Assembly: GCA_947305505.1 (NCBI GenBank)
Contig: CAMZDX010000005.1
Coordinates: forward strand, 1 to 41,312
Source: an uncultured bacterium
GTDB lineage: Bacteria; UBP6; UBA1177
Length of the DNA stretch: 41,312 nt
Direction of reading: 5' to 3'
A model generated the notes under the pieces. It saw only the letters and a program-made list of their open reading frames with translations, was not told where the DNA came from and searched no databases. The translations under genes and the position numbers were made by a program. Positions within the stretch are counted from its first letter, which is position 1. The number at the start of each line of letters is the position of its first letter. Positions 23,797-37,140 of this stretch are shown here, one piece after another.

Positions 23797-24671
23797 AAAT
23801 TGTAACTATAGAATTTTATTTTGGAAATGTCGTTTTGTTCAATGGCATCAAAAACGCTTTTTGTGTAGATTTTTATAGCGTTCAGAAGCGTTTGTTGTGC
23901 CGAATCAATATAAACGGTTTTTTCGAGGATGTGCCAAAGTGAATGTTTTATCTCAGTTGTGAATTCCGTCATTTTTCCAAGGGAACATACGACTCTGTCT
24001 GCCGCGATTCTGAAAGGTTCCATGAGATCGCAACCCAAATTGAAGTGATTAAACATATTGTCGTGGCATATTCCAAGTTGAGTCAGGTATCCGTTTGCTG
24101 AGATTTCTCTGTTGAAAGCCGAAAGAATCAGGCTATATCCATAATTTAAAGCCGAATTTACCGGATCGTCACTGCCGCGGATAAAATCCATTCCGAAAAT
24201 TGCGTTGAAATAAACTTTTGCCGCATGGCCTTCACGGTTTGAGACATCCATAGGTTCAACCTGTGTTATATATGATGCAAGCATTGAGGCTTCGCTTTCT
24301 TTGCCTCTGACAAGAAGAAATTCTGCTTGTTTTCGTATCTTTTCTTTGACTATTTCGCGCCACACTTCAGCCTTGCTTTCAGTATTCCATGCAATTTGAG
24401 TCCTTATTTTTGACGAGCTGTCATGGCTGCCGTGGTGCGGAATTAGTTCAGCAGCCGGGTTCCTTTTGGAATCGCAGAAAATGAGTTTTATTTTTCTTTC
24501 GGTTAGGGCTTCAATCAGGCAGCCTGTTATTGCAACAGCCGGATTTTCGATAACAACGGTTGCTATTTCATCAAGGAATATCCGCTTTGTTTCGTCACTT
24601 CGGATGACGAGATAACCCATTTTGGAATCAAGTTTTGCCTGACTTGAAATTATTACGGTTCGCCAGCTCAT
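23793..24671 (-). CDS. cas1: CRISPR-associated integrase Cas1 (type II)
   Basis: A 292-residue Cas1. The N-terminal beta domain starts WRTVIISSQAKLD. The helical catalytic domain holds the Glu of NREGHAAKVYF (near residue 146), the His of LGICHDN and the acidic DLMEPFRIAADR segment, which together form the metal site. It joins with Cas2 to insert spacers at the leader-side repeat. The start overlaps the cas9 stop by four bases. Sequence style is that of type II-A Cas1. Confidence 0.96.
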   Translation of the reverse strand: MSWRTVIISSQAKLDSKMGYLVIRSDETKRIFLDEIATVVIENPAVAITGCLIEALTERKIKLIFCDSKRNPAAELIPHHGSHDSSSKIRTQIAWNTESKAEVWREIVKEKIRKQAEFLLVRGKESEASMLASYITQVEPMDVSNREGHAAKVYFNAIFGMDFIRGSDDPVNSALNYGYSLILSAFNREISANGYLTQLGICHDNMFNHFNLGCDLMEPFRIAADRVVCSLGKMTEFTTEIKHSLWHILEKTVYIDSAQQTLLNAIKIYTKSVFDAIEQNDISKIKFYSYNL

Positions 24672-27600
24672 AACAGGTCAAGAAGGTTTTCTGATTTCTT
24701 TTCCCAAAGCCCTGAAGCGGAAGAATCGATTATACGGACATCGGAATAGTTCTTTTTCCAATTTGATATATTTGAACTTATCATTGTTCCGGCGGTTCTT
24801 CCGAGTCCTCCTATTGATGTCAGGTCACAACCTCGATCCATTCTGCAAAATACCTGATGAATGTTGAGAAGAGTTTTGACCTGTTCCTTGACATCGAGTG
24901 AGATAAATTTTTCTCTTCCTTTCTCTAAAGTTTCAGTCGGAGCATTTAAGCGTTTTGAATAGATGGAATTTTTAAGTTTTTTGATGTACAGGTCGTAAAG
25001 TTCGATATTTTTTTCTACGGAAATTTTGTCGTATTCTTCGCTGTAAATATAGTTGGAATTTTTTGCACATTTTTCGTCAAACATTTCAAGTTTTTTAAGG
25101 TAGAAATGCCAAAACTTGTCAGTAGAGAATTGCACTATTGGCTGAGCTATTAATTTGCTGCCTCCACTGGCACTTCCTGTGATGCAGATTTTAAAGCCGT
25201 CAAGTGACAAAACGGTATTTATTTTCCAAGGTCTCATGCCGAGCGGGAATGAAATTTCATCCACTTCTTTGCCGAGTATTTGTTTAAGCCTCGAAAGAGA
25301 GTATTGATGCGCGAAATCTTTATCTGCAAGGAAATGTTTTCCGTGAAGAAGCTCGACCGACATAATCATAATATCCTGCTTTTTTCCGATTTTATACTTT
25401 ACTGGAATAAAGAACATGCTTCCGGCTTTGTTGTAACCACCGTATTTTTCTGTCGGAAGATCTTTCTTTCTCGGAATAAGTCCTTCAGCCGCAGGAACAG
25501 GCATTTGATCAAATAATCCGCCTTTTTTGAAAAATGCGAATTTTGTAAAGTGAGCATTGTTCTTTACAGCCGTTTCTTTGACTTTAGCGAGCATTTTTAA
25601 TCCGTCCCAGACAACCTTTCCGTCGCATATAAGAGGGTGAGTGAAGATAGTTTCTATTTTGATTGAGTAATCTGAGTTTATGTTAAAGAATTTTTTCGTA
25701 AATTTCATGTTGTAAACATTACCAGTTACGATATTCAGATAAGCATCGACGGCATGATGAAGATCATTGAAAAGCCTTGATTTCCAAATTTTGAATTTAT
25801 TGCGGAATTCTGAAGCAAGGCTCGCTTTGCAACAAACGATTTCAGTTCCACTAAACTTTTTCTCAAGAAGTGTCTTGATTGCTTTTACTGCTTGGGATGT
25901 TTCTACGAGCTGCCTGTTTATGAATCCGAGCTTTTCATCTTCAGTAAATGGAGTCGATCTTGTCAGGCGTTTGAATTTTTCTTCGCTTATAAGTTCTTTT
26001 TCTTTAAGAATTTCCCAAAATCCTAACATTTTATTTCTTATGTCTGAGGGTATAGGATATTCGTTTTTCTTTACATTCTTGTTGATTGGTCCATAGACAA
26101 GGACTTTATTGTCTAAACTATCGTCTTTTACATAACTTTGCGGGTAAATATGATCTATGTCATAATTTACACCAAGAGCATCAATATCATCTATTGCATT
26201 CCATGTGTACATACATCTTCCAAGTTGCATGAAATAAAGGAATAGTTTTTCGCTTTGAAGTTCGTTATCGCTCTTTTTTTCAAGCTGTTGTCGCAGAATT
26301 TGAACATCATCGTCGCTGCATTTTTTGTAAAGCTCAAGTATTTGTTCCCGCCTGCTGTTTGTCCGATTTCCTTTTTTATCTTTTTTGCCGCCGCGGGTCG
26401 TTTCAATGAATATTTTTGCCGGTTTTCCGAATGCTTTAGTGATATCTCTGATGATATCCAAAGCTCGGTAAATTGGCCTTTTTACGGCATTCGAGATATA
26501 CATTTCATCGAGCTTCTCTTCCAATGTAGGTTCTTTTTCGGAATAATATTCGTTGCTTAATTTTTCTATTTCTTCTTTAAAAGTGAATTTGTCACTTTCA
26601 ATAATTTCCATCAAGTTGTAGTTCGTGTTCCAAAGTGTGCCGAGTATCGTGCTTTGTTCACCGGTTTCCTTATTTATTCCTTGTAATTCATCGAGAAATT
26701 CTCGGGAAAGTCTGCCGAAATCTTTGATTTTTATTCCGCAGATGTATTTCCTGTCTTTTTCATTAATGTCGGGAAATTCTTTCTCAAGCCATACTGAAAG
26801 ACGCGATTTATCTTCCGCATAAGTCGATCTTTTTATGATTTCTTCGACTTCTTTTTCTGTCAAAGTGTTCGAATCCATTAGCTTTTTGAAAGCGTGGTGC
26901 GGCGCGAGGTCTGATTTTATTGTTATATCGATACCTTCAAGTTCTGATTCGTTTCCTTTTTCCAGAAAATTATTGGTGACAAGGAAGTTTTCAATATTTT
27001 TTCGCGTTACTTTTTTCTTGGACATAAAAAGTTCGTTGAAAATCCTTTGCTTTAATTCAACACTTATCTTTTCTCCGTTGATCTTCAAGTTGTTGATTTC
27101 ATTCAGTACTTCAAATTTATGGTAGATGAGCGAATCTTTCGGGAGGACATCTGCTCCGGGAATATATGAGCATTTGTTTGTTAGTTTTTGAATAAATGCT
27201 TCTTCGCTTGCTTCGAGATTGATTATTTTTTCAAAATTCCAGGGATATATTTTTTCTTTCTCCATGTTTTTATGTCGTTCGAGCCATGCTTTATTTGATC
27301 TTTCATTGAGAGGTCCGACAAAGTAGGGTATTTTAAAAAGGAAAATGTCTTCAATCTTTTCTTTAACACTGATGCCGTCTTCGTCTTTTTCGTTGAGGAA
27401 GGGAAGATATTTTGAAGCATTGCGGAGTATTTCTTTGAGCTCGTGAAAATAAAGCTGGTGAGGGATAACACAATTATCACCGTCTTTCTGTTTCGGCATG
27501 AATTTGCGTATTTCGAGCCGTTTTTTCATATCTTCGAAGCGGATTTTGTCATCTGCGTCAGGTTCTATTTCCTTTATGATTCCAAGGATGAATTTAGAAA

Positions 27601-28744
27601 ATTCCTCTTTGTTTTTTCTCCATTTTCCGGCATGAGGTTCATCGGTGTGATGCGAATATGCAGCATAATTGTCTTTGTCAGTTATGCGGAAAACCTCGTT
27701 GTATTTTTCAGGAACATAAGTTCTGACAACGTGTTTGAGGAAAGCCAGATCTTTTTTGTGAGTTTTATAAGTTTCGATTTTTGCTTTAGAAATAGTCTTT
27801 TCACCTGCAAGAATGTCTATTAACCGCGCCCAGTCGTAGATGGGGCGCATTGCGGCGATAAGATCGTAATCATCGCCGATTTCAGATGCTGTTTGTTCAA
27901 ATTTTTCCTCATCCATGCCGAGAGAAACCGATTTGTTTTCAAGTTCGTCATAGTCATCGTTGCCGAAAAGATCTGAAAGTTTGCATGTTCCGCCGGCAAG
28001 GAGTTTCAAAATTCCTGCCTGACTGAAAGGAAAATCTTCTGAAACATCTTTCGAAGGTTTACCTCTATAAATGAGTTCACAAAGTTCTTTGTATTTTTGA
28101 GTTGCTCCAATGCTTTTCTTTAATGTTTCAGCCAATTTGTCTCGATTGACGGCATCTTCGCTCCATGGTGTTTTGTAGTCGTTGCATTTAAAATATAGGA
28201 AAAAATCATCATAAATTTTGTCGAAATCATTACCTATGTTGTCAACATTCAAATTTGGTGTTAGGAAATGTCCTCTGTGCGCTACAAGCCAAGCACATGC
28301 GAGATAAACAAGCCTGACATCGTGAGGCTCTTTGCTTTTCATCAAGTCATCAATGAGGTGATGAATGGTAGGATATTGTTTATGATATTCCTTGTCGGTA
28401 AAATCGTTATCGTTGAAAAGTGTGAATTTTTCGTTTTTCTCTTCAGGCCAGAGAGTGCTTTCTTCAAGACGGATGAAAAAACGCGGGTCGATTTTTCCGA
28501 TTTCTTTCGCAAAAAGTTGCTGAAGCAGGTCGATTCTCTGCTGTCTGCGGTCGAGCCTTCTTCTTGCTGTTCTGAAGGCACGCCGCTCTGTATTCAAAGA
28601 AGCGGCATCAAAAATTGTTGCGCCCCAGACCGGTTCGCCGTGGAATTTGAGCAGATTGTAGTTTTCATCTGTTGCAGCATAGCCGACTGAATCAGTTCCG
28701 ATGTCGAGAGAAAGAAAATAATTTTTGTTTTGAGCGTTTTTCAT
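24668..28744 (-). CDS. cas9: CRISPR-associated endonuclease Cas9, type II-A
   Basis: A 1358-residue RNA-guided nuclease. RuvC-I lies at residues about 9-25 (FLSLDIGTDSVGYAATD, catalytic Asp). The Arg-rich bridge helix spans about 54-80 (RTARRRLDRRQQRIDLLQQL). A long helical recognition lobe follows. RuvC-II is KPAKIFIETTRG with the catalytic Glu. The HNH core YDIDHIYPQSYVKDDSLDN has the catalytic His, and RuvC-III is HHAVDAYLNIVTGN. The C-terminal about 300 residues form the PAM-interacting part. The N-terminus resembles the large type II-A Cas9s such as that of Treponema denticola. All catalytic residues are present, so it should be active. GAGGAAAA precedes the ATG, and the tracrRNA promoter overlaps this site on the other strand. 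Confidence 0.97.
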   Translation of the reverse strand: MKNAQNKNYFLSLDIGTDSVGYAATDENYNLLKFHGEPVWGATIFDAASLNTERRAFRTARRRLDRRQQRIDLLQQLFAKEIGKIDPRFFIRLEESTLWPEEKNEKFTLFNDNDFTDKEYHKQYPTIHHLIDDLMKSKEPHDVRLVYLACAWLVAHRGHFLTPNLNVDNIGNDFDKIYDDFFLYFKCNDYKTPWSEDAVNRDKLAETLKKSIGATQKYKELCELIYRGKPSKDVSEDFPFSQAGILKLLAGGTCKLSDLFGNDDYDELENKSVSLGMDEEKFEQTASEIGDDYDLIAAMRPIYDWARLIDILAGEKTISKAKIETYKTHKKDLAFLKHVVRTYVPEKYNEVFRITDKDNYAAYSHHTDEPHAGKWRKNKEEFSKFILGIIKEIEPDADDKIRFEDMKKRLEIRKFMPKQKDGDNCVIPHQLYFHELKEILRNASKYLPFLNEKDEDGISVKEKIEDIFLFKIPYFVGPLNERSNKAWLERHKNMEKEKIYPWNFEKIINLEASEEAFIQKLTNKCSYIPGADVLPKDSLIYHKFEVLNEINNLKINGEKISVELKQRIFNELFMSKKKVTRKNIENFLVTNNFLEKGNESELEGIDITIKSDLAPHHAFKKLMDSNTLTEKEVEEIIKRSTYAEDKSRLSVWLEKEFPDINEKDRKYICGIKIKDFGRLSREFLDELQGINKETGEQSTILGTLWNTNYNLMEIIESDKFTFKEEIEKLSNEYYSEKEPTLEEKLDEMYISNAVKRPIYRALDIIRDITKAFGKPAKIFIETTRGGKKDKKGNRTNSRREQILELYKKCSDDDVQILRQQLEKKSDNELQSEKLFLYFMQLGRCMYTWNAIDDIDALGVNYDIDHIYPQSYVKDDSLDNKVLVYGPINKNVKKNEYPIPSDIRNKMLGFWEILKEKELISEEKFKRLTRSTPFTEDEKLGFINRQLVETSQAVKAIKTLLEKKFSGTEIVCCKASLASEFRNKFKIWKSRLFNDLHHAVDAYLNIVTGNVYNMKFTKKFFNINSDYSIKIETIFTHPLICDGKVVWDGLKMLAKVKETAVKNNAHFTKFAFFKKGGLFDQMPVPAAEGLIPRKKDLPTEKYGGYNKAGSMFFIPVKYKIGKKQDIMIMSVELLHGKHFLADKDFAHQYSLSRLKQILGKEVDEISFPLGMRPWKINTVLSLDGFKICITGSASGGSKLIAQPIVQFSTDKFWHFYLKKLEMFDEKCAKNSNYIYSEEYDKISVEKNIELYDLYIKKLKNSIYSKRLNAPTETLEKGREKFISLDVKEQVKTLLNIHQVFCRMDRGCDLTSIGGLGRTAGTMISSNISNWKKNYSDVRIIDSSASGLWEKKSENLLDLL

Positions 28745-29406: not shown

Positions 29407-29915
29407 ATGACAAAAACAAATGCAATTAAACTTTTTGAAGACAAACTTGTGCGTTCTGTCTGGGATGACGAGAAAGAAGAGTGGTTTTTTTCAGTTTTTG
29501 ATGTGGTGGAAATCCTTACGGACAGCAAAGATCCGAAGCAATACATAAAAAAGATGCGGATGCGGGACGAAGAACTGAATTTCAACTGGGGTACAATTTG
29601 TACCCCGCTTCAAATGATCGGACGTGACGGAAAACGGCGTGAGATTCAATCGGCCGACACAAAAGGCATTCTGCGCATAATTGTTGCATAACGAAAGCAA
29701 AAAATCCGCAAACTTTGGAAGAAAATGCGAAATGTGCGCACGAAGGCGGCAATGTCGCTGCCGTTGCACGGAAAGAACTCGAATCAAAAACCGGCAAAAA
29801 AGTCGTAACACCGCTGAATGCCAATACTTTTTTAAAAGGTCAGCTGGAAAACAAAGAAAAAATCGCAGAAATTCCAGATAAAGAAAGCAGCACTGACGAT
29901 AACTCCCCAAAATAA
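29407..29915 (+). pseudogene. BRO-N/phage antirepressor-like protein, internally deleted and frameshifted
   Basis: The first 90 codons encode a BRO-N type domain (LVRSVWDDEKEEWFFSVFDV ... GRDGKRREIQSADTKGILRII), then a stop at 29691. From about 29688 a different frame continues with the usual C-terminal end of this family (NPQTLEENAKCAHEGGNVAA, then ARKELESKTGKKVVTPLNA) to a stop at 29915. The middle, normally over 100 residues, is missing and the frame has shifted, so the gene is a deletion remnant. A promoter and GGAG site are intact, so a 94-residue N-terminal fragment could still be made. Such genes come from prophages or mobile islands. Confidence 0.85.
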
Positions 29916-33146: not shown

Positions 33147-33245
33147 TTAAAAGAAAATCAAAAATACAATGAGCGCAACAATTCCCAAAACCGCGAGAAT
33201 TGCCAAACCCATCAAAATACAACCGCAACCACAGCAGGATTCCAT
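33147..33245 (-). CDS. 32-residue Cys-rich membrane peptide
   Basis: A very small gene starting at the base directly after the TAA of the upstream gene (TAA then ATG), so it is almost certainly translated by coupling; GGAAGG also lies upstream. The N-terminus is MESCCGCGC, with four Cys in six residues, and it is followed by one long hydrophobic helix to the end. It could anchor a metal site or thiol cluster at the membrane, act as immunity or export helper for the peptide system, or be a small transmembrane toxin. I do not recognise a family. It is the last gene of the minus-strand operon. Confidence 0.7.
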   Translation of the reverse strand: MESCCGCGCILMGLAILAVLGIVALIVFLIFF

Positions 33246-33449
33246 TTAAAAATCCTTCCTCTCAAATTTAAGGCAATATCCCCAAGAAGGCTGAGGGGTT
33301 TTACGCACAGTGCATGTTCTACGCGCCGAAAACTCAAATTCCCAAAAATCGCCGGTATTTTTAGGTCTCAGAGCGGAACTGCCTGGATCCCACCAATGTT
33401 TGCAGACACAGCAAAGTTTTGTCAGTTTAATGTTTACAATTTTCCACAT
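33246..33449 (-). CDS. Small Cys-containing protein of unknown function
   Basis: A 67-residue protein with AGGAG 6 bases before its ATG. It carries CCVCKHWWDP near residue 13, then RRTCTVRK and WGYCLKFE near the end. The CxxC plus two later Cys would suit a small zinc site. Aromatic residues (WW, FWEFEF, W) are unusually frequent. It begins 9 bases after the preceding gene and its stop abuts the next start, so it belongs to the operon. It could be a second substrate of the radical SAM enzyme, a binding protein or an unrelated zinc-ribbon protein; no function is claimed. Confidence 0.72.
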   Translation of the reverse strand: MWKIVNIKLTKLCCVCKHWWDPGSSALRPKNTGDFWEFEFSARRTCTVRKTPQPSWGYCLKFERKDF

Positions 33450-33724: not shown

Positions 33725-34498
33725 TTAAAAAAACAATGAATATTCCAAACAATATTCTGCTGATTCGCTGTTTTTCTCATATTCACGTTCAAAACTGATT
33801 TTTTGTCCGTGCCTTTCTGTTGCATACCAGTGCGTTATCGGAAAATCGGTTCCGAAAAACAATTTCCCGTTTTTGCCGCTTAGTTCAGCCCTTTTTAATT
33901 CCTCCAGAGATTCCATAGGAACAAAAGAGCTGTCGGCATAAACATTCTGATATTTTGAAAGCATTTCGATAGCCTGATCTATCGGCCTGCAATGGGCAAG
34001 AACTACTTTAACATTCTGATATTCTTTAAAAAAACGCTCGAATTTTCCCGCCTCCTCGAACTCGTCGTATCCGCTGTGGATAAGCAGAGGTAGATTGTTC
34101 CGCCCAGCAAAATCAAAAATTTCGTGAACAATATCCGTTGTGCTGCAATCATTCAAATCCCAGTTGTGTGCCCTGGGATGGATTTTTATTCCGCAATAAG
34201 GCAGAGTTGCGAAAGCCTTTTCAACAGGAACTCCCTGTTTGTGATAGTCAGGCACATACCAAAGCAACGGCTTGACAACACTCTGAGAATATTGGGTTTT
34301 CCCGTCTTTTGCCGAATATATTCCTCCGATTTCCGCTTCTATTTCTGAATATTTCACGCCGAAAATACAACTGCTTGTTGAAGAAAAAACCAATCCGTCG
34401 ATTTTTACTTTTGGGGAGGTCAGAACTGTATCAAAAACCTGTTGATAATCGTAATATCTGTCGCTCCACCAGCCGATATGAACATGGTTGTCAATCAT
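33725..34498 (-). CDS. Amidohydrolase-family metal-dependent hydrolase
   Basis: A 257-residue TIM-barrel hydrolase of the amidohydrolase_2 type. The metal ligands appear in order: DNHVHIG at the start, HPRAH near residue 132, LLIHSG near 160, LAHCRP near 185 and GTDFPI near 230. The ATG lies in the ATGA overlap with the radical SAM stop, so the two are translationally coupled. In this operon it may trim or hydrolyse a modified peptide or process a leader, but the family is broad (decarboxylases, lactonases, amidases) and the substrate cannot be read. The length is short but the five ligands are complete. Confidence 0.82.
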   Translation of the reverse strand: MIDNHVHIGWWSDRYYDYQQVFDTVLTSPKVKIDGLVFSSTSSCIFGVKYSEIEAEIGGIYSAKDGKTQYSQSVVKPLLWYVPDYHKQGVPVEKAFATLPYCGIKIHPRAHNWDLNDCSTTDIVHEIFDFAGRNNLPLLIHSGYDEFEEAGKFERFFKEYQNVKVVLAHCRPIDQAIEMLSKYQNVYADSSFVPMESLEELKRAELSGKNGKLFFGTDFPITHWYATERHGQKISFEREYEKNSESAEYCLEYSLFF

Positions 34499-35961
34499 TT
34501 TTTGTGTTTTTCCTGATATTCCTTTGCCCATCTGTCAACGATTTCACGGTTTTTCGCAACAGCGTCGCAGAAATGTCTGTTTAGTTTCAAAGGATCACCA
34601 TCAGGATTTTCATTTGCGTTTCTTACCATGCACATAGCACAGAAAAGCTGATCTTTGCAGTCGGCACACTCTTTGAAATCCTTGTTTCTCAAACTGCGCA
34701 GCCAGTTGATTTTAGGAGAATTTTCCCAAATATTTTTCAAGCTTTCGTCGCAAAGATTTCCGCAGACACAGTTCTGCCAGCCGGCACACGGATAAACATT
34801 TCCGTTCGCGACCATGCAGATCGAAGCAACTCCGACCCCGCAGACGATACCTTCCGGATCTTTTTTGTATTCGGCACATTTTTTGAAATAATCATCACGG
34901 GTTATCAAATACTGATAGTCAATGTCATCCTTCAAAAGCGTCTCGATTACATCGCCGACTTCCTCAACAGAAAGCCTGTTTTCCAGATTTTCTCTGGTGT
35001 TATCGCATTTTGCCATGATGTTGTAGTCTGTGACGACACGCACTCTTAATTTGTCACCGAACTTGAAAACATCGCTCAAACCCTCTTTGTTCTGCTTCAT
35101 AACGGGACATGAAATCTGAAGCGGAATGTCGTTTTTGACAAGTTTCAAAATTCCGTCGTAGGTTTTCTGCCATGATCCCGGAATTGTTGTGATTTTATCG
35201 TGAATCTCAGGGACCATGCTGTAAAGCGAGGTCTGGACCGACGAAATTCTGCTCGTTCTCATCGCCTCGACTATTTCATCTGTCAGAAGCGTAAGATTCG
35301 AGAGAACATTCAAAGAAAAATCGTAGTTTTTAGCCGCTTTGAAAAATTCCAAAAACCGCGGGTGCAGCATCGGCTCGCCGCCGGACAAAGTGAGTCCGAG
35401 AACTCCCATTTCGCTGCACTGTTCCAGCACGGAATAAAAAAGTTCCGGCTTTATGTCTGTATTTTTACATTCATGCGGAATATAGCAGTGAATGCACCTT
35501 TCATTGCAACGGCTCGTCAGCTCTATCTGCAAATTTGTCAGATGCGGATGCTGTTTGAAATGCTCGTCAAGAAAATACTGCGTAGTTTCCTCGGCTCTCG
35601 GCAGTTTCGGAGCGAAATTTCCTTTCACCGTCTTCGGTTCAAGCTGTGAATAAGAAAAACGGACATCTTTTCTATCAAGCTCTTCTGCAGTTTCACCGCT
35701 AACAATAAAGTTGTCTTCCTCCAAGATTCGGTAAAAATCAATCACATCCTGTCTGATATCGTCAATCGTAACATCGTTGAATGCCACGATGATTTTATTC
35801 AGCAATTCTTCCAGAGTCTGCGGTTCCCTTGACAGCGCAAGCAAAAAAACCGCACCGCTTTCGTTGCATACTCTGTCGCTGAAATCGGCTTTGTTCGATA
35901 TATAGCCAATATTTTCATATTTTCTGATAAACGTATCGAATTTCTGTCTGTATAACATCAT
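34495..35961 (-). CDS. Radical SAM/SPASM peptide maturase with PqqD-like N-terminus
   Basis: A 488-residue enzyme. Residues about 30-88 (GAVFLLALSREPQTLEELL, then DVIDFYRILEEDNFIV) look like a PqqD-type RiPP recognition element. The radical SAM cluster is CNERCIHC (Cys152, 156, 159) followed by LSGGEP. The C-terminal SPASM domain has CMVANGNVYPCAGW, NCVCGNL, then CADCKDQLFCAMC and a final Cys, enough ligands for two auxiliary Fe-S clusters. Such enzymes cross-link or epimerise ribosomal peptides. It overlaps both neighbours by four bases. The candidate substrate is the 55-residue peptide encoded at the head of the operon. Peptide modification is strongly suggested; the bond formed is unknown. 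Confidence 0.9.
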   Translation of the reverse strand: MMLYRQKFDTFIRKYENIGYISNKADFSDRVCNESGAVFLLALSREPQTLEELLNKIIVAFNDVTIDDIRQDVIDFYRILEEDNFIVSGETAEELDRKDVRFSYSQLEPKTVKGNFAPKLPRAEETTQYFLDEHFKQHPHLTNLQIELTSRCNERCIHCYIPHECKNTDIKPELFYSVLEQCSEMGVLGLTLSGGEPMLHPRFLEFFKAAKNYDFSLNVLSNLTLLTDEIVEAMRTSRISSVQTSLYSMVPEIHDKITTIPGSWQKTYDGILKLVKNDIPLQISCPVMKQNKEGLSDVFKFGDKLRVRVVTDYNIMAKCDNTRENLENRLSVEEVGDVIETLLKDDIDYQYLITRDDYFKKCAEYKKDPEGIVCGVGVASICMVANGNVYPCAGWQNCVCGNLCDESLKNIWENSPKINWLRSLRNKDFKECADCKDQLFCAMCMVRNANENPDGDPLKLNRHFCDAVAKNREIVDRWAKEYQEKHKK

Positions 35962-36377
35962 TCCATCCCCAGTTTTTTAATCCAATCTTCTTTGCTTATC
36001 ACTTCATAGTCCATCAAATATTCTCTAACTTGCCGCTCACCATTTTTAATTTCTGTAATTGCAAAATCACTTTTATCACTATTTATTTTCTCGACTTCGC
36101 TTTTTGACAAAATAAAGAATTGATTCACATCATAATTTCTTACAACTATTACCAAAAAATCATATTGTTTATTAACTCCCCTCACGACATTGTTTGTAGT
36201 CTTAGCATTCCAAGTTGTTGTTTTTACCTGAATTTTCTTAAATTTACGCCCTCTTGCAACAATGACATCCCAATTTTTCTGATTTTTATTCACAGGACGA
36301 CATACATCATAACCACTTTTCAACAATTCAAGAACAACTAATTGTTCTCCAATTTCTCCAATTATGTTTTTATCCAC
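35958..36377 (-). CDS. PD-(D/E)XK-like nuclease-fold protein in the peptide operon
   Basis: A 139-residue protein starting at GTG with TGAGG 6 bases upstream. The N-terminal IGEIGEQLVVLELLKSGYDV supplies the first Glu. WDVIVARG and then KIQVKTTTW supply the Asp and Q-x-K of a PD-(D/E)XK core. The spacing resembles small restriction-like or PDDEXK_5 domains. The gene is visibly richer in A+T than its neighbours. It ends in an ATGA overlap with the radical SAM gene. A nuclease fold is unexpected in a peptide-maturation operon: it may be an addiction, mobility or regulatory part of the island. Confidence 0.72.
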   Translation of the reverse strand: MDKNIIGEIGEQLVVLELLKSGYDVCRPVNKNQKNWDVIVARGRKFKKIQVKTTTWNAKTTNNVVRGVNKQYDFLVIVVRNYDVNQFFILSKSEVEKINSDKSDFAITEIKNGERQVREYLMDYEVISKEDWIKKLGME

Positions 36378-36391
36378 AAAAACCTCATTTC

Positions 36392-36413
36392 AAAAGGGCG
36401 GCTTTCACCGCCC
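36392..36413 (-). terminator. Terminator-like attenuator after the peptide gene
   Basis: On the minus strand the stem GGGCGG ... CCGCCC (36396-36413) is followed by TTTT. It lies 9 bases after the peptide stop and 15 before the next GTG. Partial termination here would give more peptide than enzyme mRNA, as is usual in RiPP operons. Confidence 0.7.
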
Positions 36414-36421
36414 CGACAAAA

Positions 36422-36589
36422 CTACTTCGTTCTTTCACAATTAAGGCATTTCTGAAGCGTGCTGTTGCAAGCACGTTCCGGATTTACTCTTGCCGAACCT
36501 GCAGGACCACGATCCTTTGGAGAGCAAGTTGCCGCGTAACTTCCCTGCGGAGCTGTTTGTGCATAGAACACAGGTTTCTGATAAGGCAT
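36422..36589 (-). CDS. Candidate RiPP precursor peptide
   Basis: A 55-residue peptide starting at an ATG with GGAGG 6 bases upstream; longer in-frame starts lack a site. The N-terminal leader-like part reads KPVFYAQTAPQGSYAAT. The core contains Cys22, Cys41, Cys48 and Cys51, Gly/Pro/Arg turns (DRGPAGSARVNPERAC) and a CLNC end. It has no signal peptide and no hydrophobic helix. It heads the operon containing a PqqD/radical SAM/SPASM enzyme and is followed by an attenuator hairpin, the usual position of a modified peptide. I do not recognise the family. A small unmodified regulatory or metal-binding protein is the main alternative. Confidence 0.72.
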   Translation of the reverse strand: MPYQKPVFYAQTAPQGSYAATCSPKDRGPAGSARVNPERACNSTLQKCLNCERTK

Positions 36590-36703
36590 TTTTTCCTCCA
36601 TTGAAAAAACAGTAAAATATCTGAAACGGGACTCCCGAAACAGTCTTTTTTGAAAAATCATAATAACTTACCCTCCCCCCGACTACGGGGAACGCAGGAT
36701 TCC

Positions 36704-36786
36704 GACAATATTTTAACGTTTTATTTACTAATAGTCAATATTGTCTTTACCGATAGTCAAAAATTATTTTCTGTATGTGCTATATT
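36704..36786 (+). promoter_or_regulatory. Regulatory region between the peptide operon and its XRE regulator
   Basis: GACAATATT (36704-36712) and AATATTGTC (36737-36745) form an inverted repeat 24 bases apart. ATAGTCAA occurs at 36731 and again at 36753, two helical turns apart. TGCTATATT (36778-36786) is an extended -10 for the regulator. These are good candidate XRE binding sites. The rest of 36590-36807 holds only short G+C hairpins. Confidence 0.6.
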
Positions 36787-36807: not shown

Positions 36808-37140
36808 ATGGATGGCAAAACACTTGGCAAACGGGTAAAAGCATTAAGGCGTAAAGCCGGAATAACGCAGCTTGACCTAGCGTGCCGGGTAAATATCAGC
36901 GAAAGCTATATTGCGTTGATAGAAGCAGACAAACGAAAACCGGGAATGGATATAATCTCTACTTTGGCAAACGAATTTCATGTCTCTGTTGACTATCTTT
37001 TAAGCGGCAAAATTTCAGAAGAAGACAACCTCATGCTCAAAGAATGGACATCTCTTATAAAGGAAAGACCTCAAAAAGATATCGAAAGCGCACTTAAAAT
37101 CGTCCGCACTTTTTTTGAATGTGTGGACAGCAAAAAATAA
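36808..37140 (+). CDS. XRE-family transcriptional regulator
   Basis: A 110-residue helix-turn-helix protein. Residues about 5-65 are a typical XRE domain (LGKRVKALRRKAGITQLDLA, then SESYIALIEADKRKPGMDII), with a C-terminal extension of helices (LKEWTSLIKERPQKDIESAL), probably for dimerisation. The ATG at 36808 has GGAGG 9 bases upstream. It is divergent from the peptide-maturation operon and shares its control region, so it probably represses or activates that operon and itself. It lies inside the 48-bp direct repeats. Confidence 0.88.
   Translation: MDGKTLGKRVKALRRKAGITQLDLACRVNISESYIALIEADKRKPGMDIISTLANEFHVSVDYLLSGKISEEDNLMLKEWTSLIKERPQKDIESALKIVRTFFECVDSKK

Follow-up and report, generated by a model that had tools for sequence, protein, structure and literature searches.

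A predicted radical-SAM RiPP precursor in an uncultured rumen bacterium and its relatives on mobile DNA

Results

A small Cys-containing gene at the head of a radical-SAM operon

The window considered here is the whole stretch of DNA that was analysed, 41,312 nucleotides of contig CAMZDX010000005.1 from an uncultured bacterium. Its minus strand carries an operon, read leftwards, in which the gene for a 55-residue peptide and a hairpin are followed by genes encoding a PD-(D/E)XK_5 protein, a radical-SAM/SPASM enzyme, an amidohydrolase and proteins of about 78, 67 and 32 residues. The features are listed below in the order of transcription, preceded by the divergent regulator; L032 is a related locus from the same rumen genus.

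36808..37140, plus strand: divergent HTH regulator, 110 aa, 100% identical in L032
36724..36760, minus strand: two exact direct repeats TTGACTATNNGTAAA (36724-36738 and 36746-36760), 22 bp apart, over the promoter; 0.05 expected in the whole window
36710..36738, minus strand: sigma-70-like promoter TTGACT-17-TAAAAT, between the precursor and the divergent HTH gene; one found against 0.7 expected in the shuffled region
36595..36599, minus strand: Shine-Dalgarno GGAGG, from the sequence
36422..36589, minus strand: precursor peptide gene, 55 aa and stop, from the ORF list and relatives
36527..36589, minus strand: leader, residues 1 to about 20-21, with the RRE-binding motif Y3xxP6xF8 and YAA ahead of the core; from invariance in relatives and synonymous-only changes in codons 1-20, the motif from PMC13381572
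36425..36526, minus strand: core, residues 22-55, Cys 22/41/48/51; varies among relatives, border inferred from conservation, cleavage site putative
36396..36414, minus strand: hairpin between the precursor and the downstream genes, probable attenuator, from folding; T run short in the window
35958..36377, minus strand: PD-(D/E)XK_5 protein, 139 aa, homing-endonuclease-like, replaced or absent in relatives
34495..35958, minus strand: radical-SAM/SPASM maturase with N-terminal PqqD-type RRE and CxxxCxxC at 152/156/159, from Pfam/NCBIfam profile matches
33725..34498, minus strand: amidohydrolase (PF04909, Pfam), likely start MIDNHVH overlapping the radical-SAM stop; start from the open frame in L032
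33459..33695, minus strand: small protein of about 78 aa, no family
33246..33449, minus strand: 67-aa Cys-containing protein, no family, 91-100% conserved, in the genus found only with this cluster
33147..33245, minus strand: 32-aa peptide MESCCGCG..., one hydrophobic stretch, no family

An earlier sequence-only reading had picked out the 55-residue ORF with its four Cys and a strong ribosome-binding site; both are present as described, on the minus strand, which that reading did not state. The peptide, MPYQKPVFYAQTAPQGSYAATCSPKDRGPAGSARVNPERACNSTLQKCLNCERTK, has Cys at 22, 41, 48 and 51. Its C-terminus is CLNC-ERTK, so the CLNC previously given as the end does lie near the C-terminus but is not terminal, since ERTK comes after it. 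The sequence agrees with the claimed absence of a signal peptide, and the proposed leader-like stretch AQTAPQGSYAAT also fits, but the true leader is longer, extending from residue 1 to about 20. Relatives of the peptide also keep a second ATG in frame, four codons further upstream (MEEK); because this ATG overlaps the Shine-Dalgarno sequence, the start at MPYQ is the likelier one.

The two copies of TTGACTATNNGTAAA at the promoter are the only ones in the window and are probably operators of the divergent HTH protein. The hairpin did not pass a strict terminator scan in the window, and a hairpin 3' of the precursor was present in all six loci folded. The PD-(D/E)XK protein matches a homing-endonuclease model with E 5e-7. 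The amidohydrolase is confined to the window's genus and absent from the wider family described below; no solved structures were found for it by sequence and, when tried as a family marker, it matched only 2 of 386 genomes, both known already. Elsewhere in the window, the translation of a 1358-aa ORF (24668-28744, minus strand) reads like Cas9, and those of two ORFs in different frames (29407-29915) read like one interrupted phage antirepressor/DinD-like gene; both are candidates.

Leader and core in the window's genus

Relatives of the peptide were found in the same rumen genus at L032 (genome G003), at L033 (G010) and on contig L031, so that, with the window, four loci are available. L031 carries two precursors in tandem, of 54 and 38 aa, and has no PD-(D/E)XK gene. 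The first 20 residues are identical in the window, L031a, L032 and L033, and the sequences diverge after the first Cys (YAAxC); all four peptides that are complete share M1, Y3, K5, P6, F8-P14, G16, Y18-A20 and C22. Compared with the window, codons 1-20 carry 9 synonymous changes in L031a, 7 in L032 and 9 in L033, and 0 nonsynonymous differences in each case. Since the leader changes are only synonymous in the three other loci and a similar ORF occupies the same place beside orthologous enzymes, the ORF is more than a chance reading frame: it is a genuine gene.

Beyond the leader the peptides vary. The number of Cys is 3-5 in the precursors of the window's genus and 2-3 in the plasmid and L095 members of the wider family, and length and spacing vary too, while every precursor with a complete core has at least two Cys and the first Cys after the leader is invariant. 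A leader fixed with silent changes only, a variable core and tandem precursors in one locus together make up the pattern of a RiPP. For a RiPP, the sequence-only reading had asked for conservation of leader and Cys, variability of the core and proximity to radical SAM genes; we found the leader and the first Cys invariant, the rest of the core variable and a radical-SAM/SPASM gene in the operon. Its suggestion that the Pro/Gly-rich middle holds cyclisation sites received no specific support, that segment being among the least conserved in the genus. It had also recognised no named RiPP class, and indeed the window precursor matches none of the NCBIfam or Pfam models.

At the DNA level the window and L032 are 95% alike over the HTH gene, promoter and leader, show no detectable similarity over the core and the PD-(D/E)XK gene, and become similar again, at 88%, just before the enzyme. 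This pattern, seen in two loci only, is suggestive of a joint exchange of the core and the PD-(D/E)XK gene. The setting of the cluster also changes within the genus: rnf genes are close by in the window, glyS/lysS-like genes in L032. Just behind the L032 cluster stands a copy of the rnfA 3' end (L032:11418-11509), away from an rnf operon. This fragment may have been left by a transfer from a site linked to rnf, like that of the window. The different settings and the rnfA copy behind the L032 cluster argue that the cluster has moved within the genus too.

The L033 contig stops after precursor residue 23 (L033:8001-8069), at the leader/core border, a break that would be expected where assembly is disrupted by repeated leaders or by strain variants of the core. 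An alphaproteobacterial origin of L031 was considered and rejected: the peptide is missing from 49 other genomes of that order, the upstream DNA is like L033 and the distal gene order is like the window, which makes misbinning likelier than transfer. Weak matches of the peptide in unrelated genomes (E 0.007-1) were taken as chance, and the checked case, L011 (same genus), sits among unrelated genes.

The radical-SAM enzyme

Pfam places PqqD at residues 33-86 of the window enzyme, Radical_SAM at 146-301 and SPASM at 374-436. The PqqD model (PF05402) scores 23.7 bits in the window enzyme, 38.2 in that of L095 and 22.3 in that of E. coli, which falls just below the cut-off of 23.4 bits. Many NCBIfam radical-SAM models match the window enzyme, none of them near its own cut-off, and the matches to viperin (pVip) were set aside as generic radical-SAM similarity only. 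The enzyme is under purifying selection, with dN/dS of about 0.04-0.12 among the loci of the window's genus. Within the phylum, an enzyme match at E 1e-30 was obtained in only 2 of 28 genomes; in a scan of 386 genomes the remaining matches covered the radical-SAM and SPASM part only, with identities no higher than 36%. With a mean pLDDT of 49, the AlphaFold model of the enzyme was too poor for a fold search.

Relatives on plasmids, on a transposon and in a viral collection

By tblastn against plasmids, full-length enzymes at 43% identity were found on conjugative plasmids of E. coli (five), Salmonella Milwaukee and Photobacterium damselae. Overall, full-length orthologues share 40-44% identity with the window enzyme and are preceded by unannotated precursors of 38-41 aa. 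Directly upstream of each inspected plasmid enzyme lies MSYSKPTVLAKSSTYMAQCRPNSKPSGRPCNPPGPSGR, identical in all seven and in no gene table; examples of the missing 38-aa gene are L090:7812-7928, L091:2782-2898 and L092:7807-7923. Gaps in the PLSDB gene tables are a known problem. Between E. coli and Photobacterium the enzymes share 77% identity, and the precursor genes differ in 17 of 38 codons, 17 changes being synonymous and 0 nonsynonymous, so that the peptides are identical over 38 residues. L095, a contig of a viral collection, encodes an enzyme at 40% identity and the precursor MSMKKYQTPTLVAQSTVKMADCRPNRRPCGRPCNPPGPGGR, with neighbours that read like tyrosine-recombinase genes. Pro, Gly and Arg, besides Cys, are abundant in the core that the plasmid and L095 precursors have in common.

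On the E. coli plasmid NZ_LT985265 (L093, IncF) the precursor-enzyme pair is the only recognised cargo of an intact 6.1-kb Tn3-family transposon (L093:3901-10038), which has a DDE_Tnp_Tn3 transposase, a resolvase, 49-bp inverted repeats at 94% and the 5-bp target duplication TTATA on both sides. In the wider family, the minimal unit is a precursor and an enzyme on mobile DNA.

An upstream ORF with [YW]xxPx[LVIAFY] and at least two Cys was present at 7 of 7 family loci, which are not all independent since those of E. coli, Salmonella and Photobacterium are close kin, against 0 of 21 control radical-SAM loci. In four of the controls (L072, L073, L079 and L082) a small ORF with a YxKPx-type leader and Cys lies downstream of the radical-SAM gene, and two of these ORFs match FlmA or StsA models weakly, which suggests members of the same broad kind; the four are probable precursors of other radical-SAM RiPPs. 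In the enzyme tree the window, plasmid and L095 enzymes are united at 100/99, the Macrococcoides enzyme (L094) coming next at 97/86.

The family was sought in several other collections. No viral contig carried the window enzyme or the genus leaders, L095 being found only by a broader enzyme alignment, and the phage records held no full-length enzyme relative and no relative of the plasmid precursor. There was no family member in 395 Bacteroidia genomes, nor in complete E. coli genomes, although five E. coli plasmid records carry the family; since the genome library is a sample, these absences mean that the family is rare, no more. A scan of 399 Pseudomonadota genomes recovered nothing beyond the RUI108 locus itself and one distant enzyme (G464) that had no recognisable precursor before it. 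A text search of the literature, in which short pieces of the two precursor sequences were also used, turned up no description of the family.

Discussion

Proposed mechanism and alternative explanations

Taken together, these data make it very probable that the ORF encodes a RiPP precursor modified by the adjacent radical-SAM enzyme. The motif [Y/W]xxPx[L/V/I/A/F/Y] binds PqqD-type RREs and occurs in PQQ precursors (PMC13381572), and a [Y/W]xxPx[hydrophobic] motif, as YxxPx[F/V/L], is present in every leader of the window/plasmid/L095 clade. From the published work on RREs, the PqqD-type domain fused to the radical-SAM/SPASM enzyme would hold the leader through Y3xxP6xF8; the radical centre, judging from the enzyme class, would then modify the core beginning at the invariant Cys after YAA, and Cys would be cross-linked to neighbouring residues, most likely as thioether. 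The hairpin after the precursor gene would let the precursor outnumber the enzyme, and repression of the promoter, through the two direct repeats, is probably the task of the divergent HTH protein. In the window's genus the amidohydrolase would probably trim the modified peptide, perhaps by removing the leader, but it may do something else.

An unmodified small folded metal-binding protein of the Cys4 zinc type could also have four Cys with a C-terminal CxxC. Conservation, however, runs the other way: it is the N-terminus, free of Cys, that stays invariant, and the Cys region that varies in length, Cys number and spacing; the precursor, moreover, is always beside an RRE-bearing radical-SAM enzyme, and we consider this explanation highly improbable. 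If the peptide instead gave rise to a redox cofactor, as the PQQ and mycofactocin precursors do, and the product were a small molecule serving enzymes, this would account for the PqqD-type RRE and the YxxP leader motif shared with PQQ, and also for the failure to recognise an exporter. Such a reading is nevertheless very unlikely, since the core varies strongly within one genus, unlike a cofactor precursor, and since L031 has two different precursors in tandem.

Within the preferred reading, that of a RiPP precursor, the chemistry is a separate matter. Whether the modification consists of Cys-centred thioether cross-links seems to us an evenly balanced question; the thioether is a best guess, based only on the SPASM domain and on every core having Cys. 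It is quite conceivable, if less than an even prospect, that the enzyme introduces something else (epimerisation, C-C or C-O links), the Cys then ending up in disulphides or as metal ligands. Ether, C-C and C-S links are all made by related radical-SAM/SPASM enzymes (PMC9062424, PMC13361665), and the core conserved on plasmids and L095 offers Pro, Gly and Arg besides Cys, but the recurrence of two or more Cys and the fixed first Cys after the leader speak against a chemistry that leaves Cys aside.

As to function, no transporter or immunity gene was recognised with the cluster or beside the unit on the plasmids, and the lack of a recognised exporter or immunity gene with the plasmid unit would fit a peptide acting inside the producing cell. 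We therefore raise, as a speculation that we regard as rather doubtful, that the two-gene RiPP unit is carried by mobile elements for their own benefit, the peptide serving inside the producer, for example as a regulator or as a maintenance or exclusion factor, and that the window's genus swaps the core and the homing-endonuclease-like gene jointly, with leader and enzyme unchanged.

Significance

A radical-SAM peptide family with an unannotated precursor spans uncultured bacteria of the rumen as well as conjugative plasmids of Enterobacteriaceae and Vibrionaceae. The precursor shared without change by E. coli and Photobacterium, under purifying selection and once on an intact Tn3-family transposon, offers an unusually small and testable two-gene system; should its product prove to act within the cell, RiPPs would gain a part in the biology of mobile elements.

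Comparison with known systems

By every testable sequence criterion the system is a RiPP, and at curated cut-offs it is outside all named radical-SAM RiPP families; on this evidence, the window/plasmid/L095 precursor-enzyme family is new and mobile. Sactipeptides and ranthipeptides (AlbA, SkfB, StsB, PapB) have a Cys-bearing precursor, a SPASM radical-SAM enzyme and, in several cases, a PqqD-like domain. Their curated NCBIfam models are reached by neither the precursor nor the maturase, and the maturase remains far below the cut-offs (StsB 75/625, AlbA 67/850 and PapB 57.5/340 bits). With PQQ (PqqA, PqqD, PqqE) the system shares the YxxPx[hydrophobic] leader motif, the PqqD fold and a PqqE-like enzyme, but the window enzyme scores 83 bits with the PqqE model, whose cut-off is 381 bits, and the core of the window family is variable and contains Cys.

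The bottromycin amidohydrolase PurAH/BotAH trims a RiPP, PurAH removing the follower peptide (PMC10885120), and by analogy with PurAH we guess that the window amidohydrolase may be a trimming enzyme; the two belong to different RiPP classes, and only the broad superfamily may be common to them.

The SSH motif RaS-RiPP of streptococci (NCBIfam NF050043) is listed as not characterised (PMC13361665). Its model is matched only by L094, and gave no match for the L031 and L095 precursors (E 10) or for those of the window and E. coli (E 1). The L094 precursor, on a Macrococcoides plasmid, matches it with E 7e-25 and resembles the window family in its KP near the start and its MA before the core. The L094 radical-SAM enzyme is the sister branch of the window/plasmid/L095 clade (97/86), a place that is unsure because L094 is on a long branch. 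PqqD is a separate gene in L094, whereas the RRE is fused to the radical-SAM enzyme in the window family. On these sequence comparisons, the SSH RaS-RiPP is the nearest named relative of the window precursor family.
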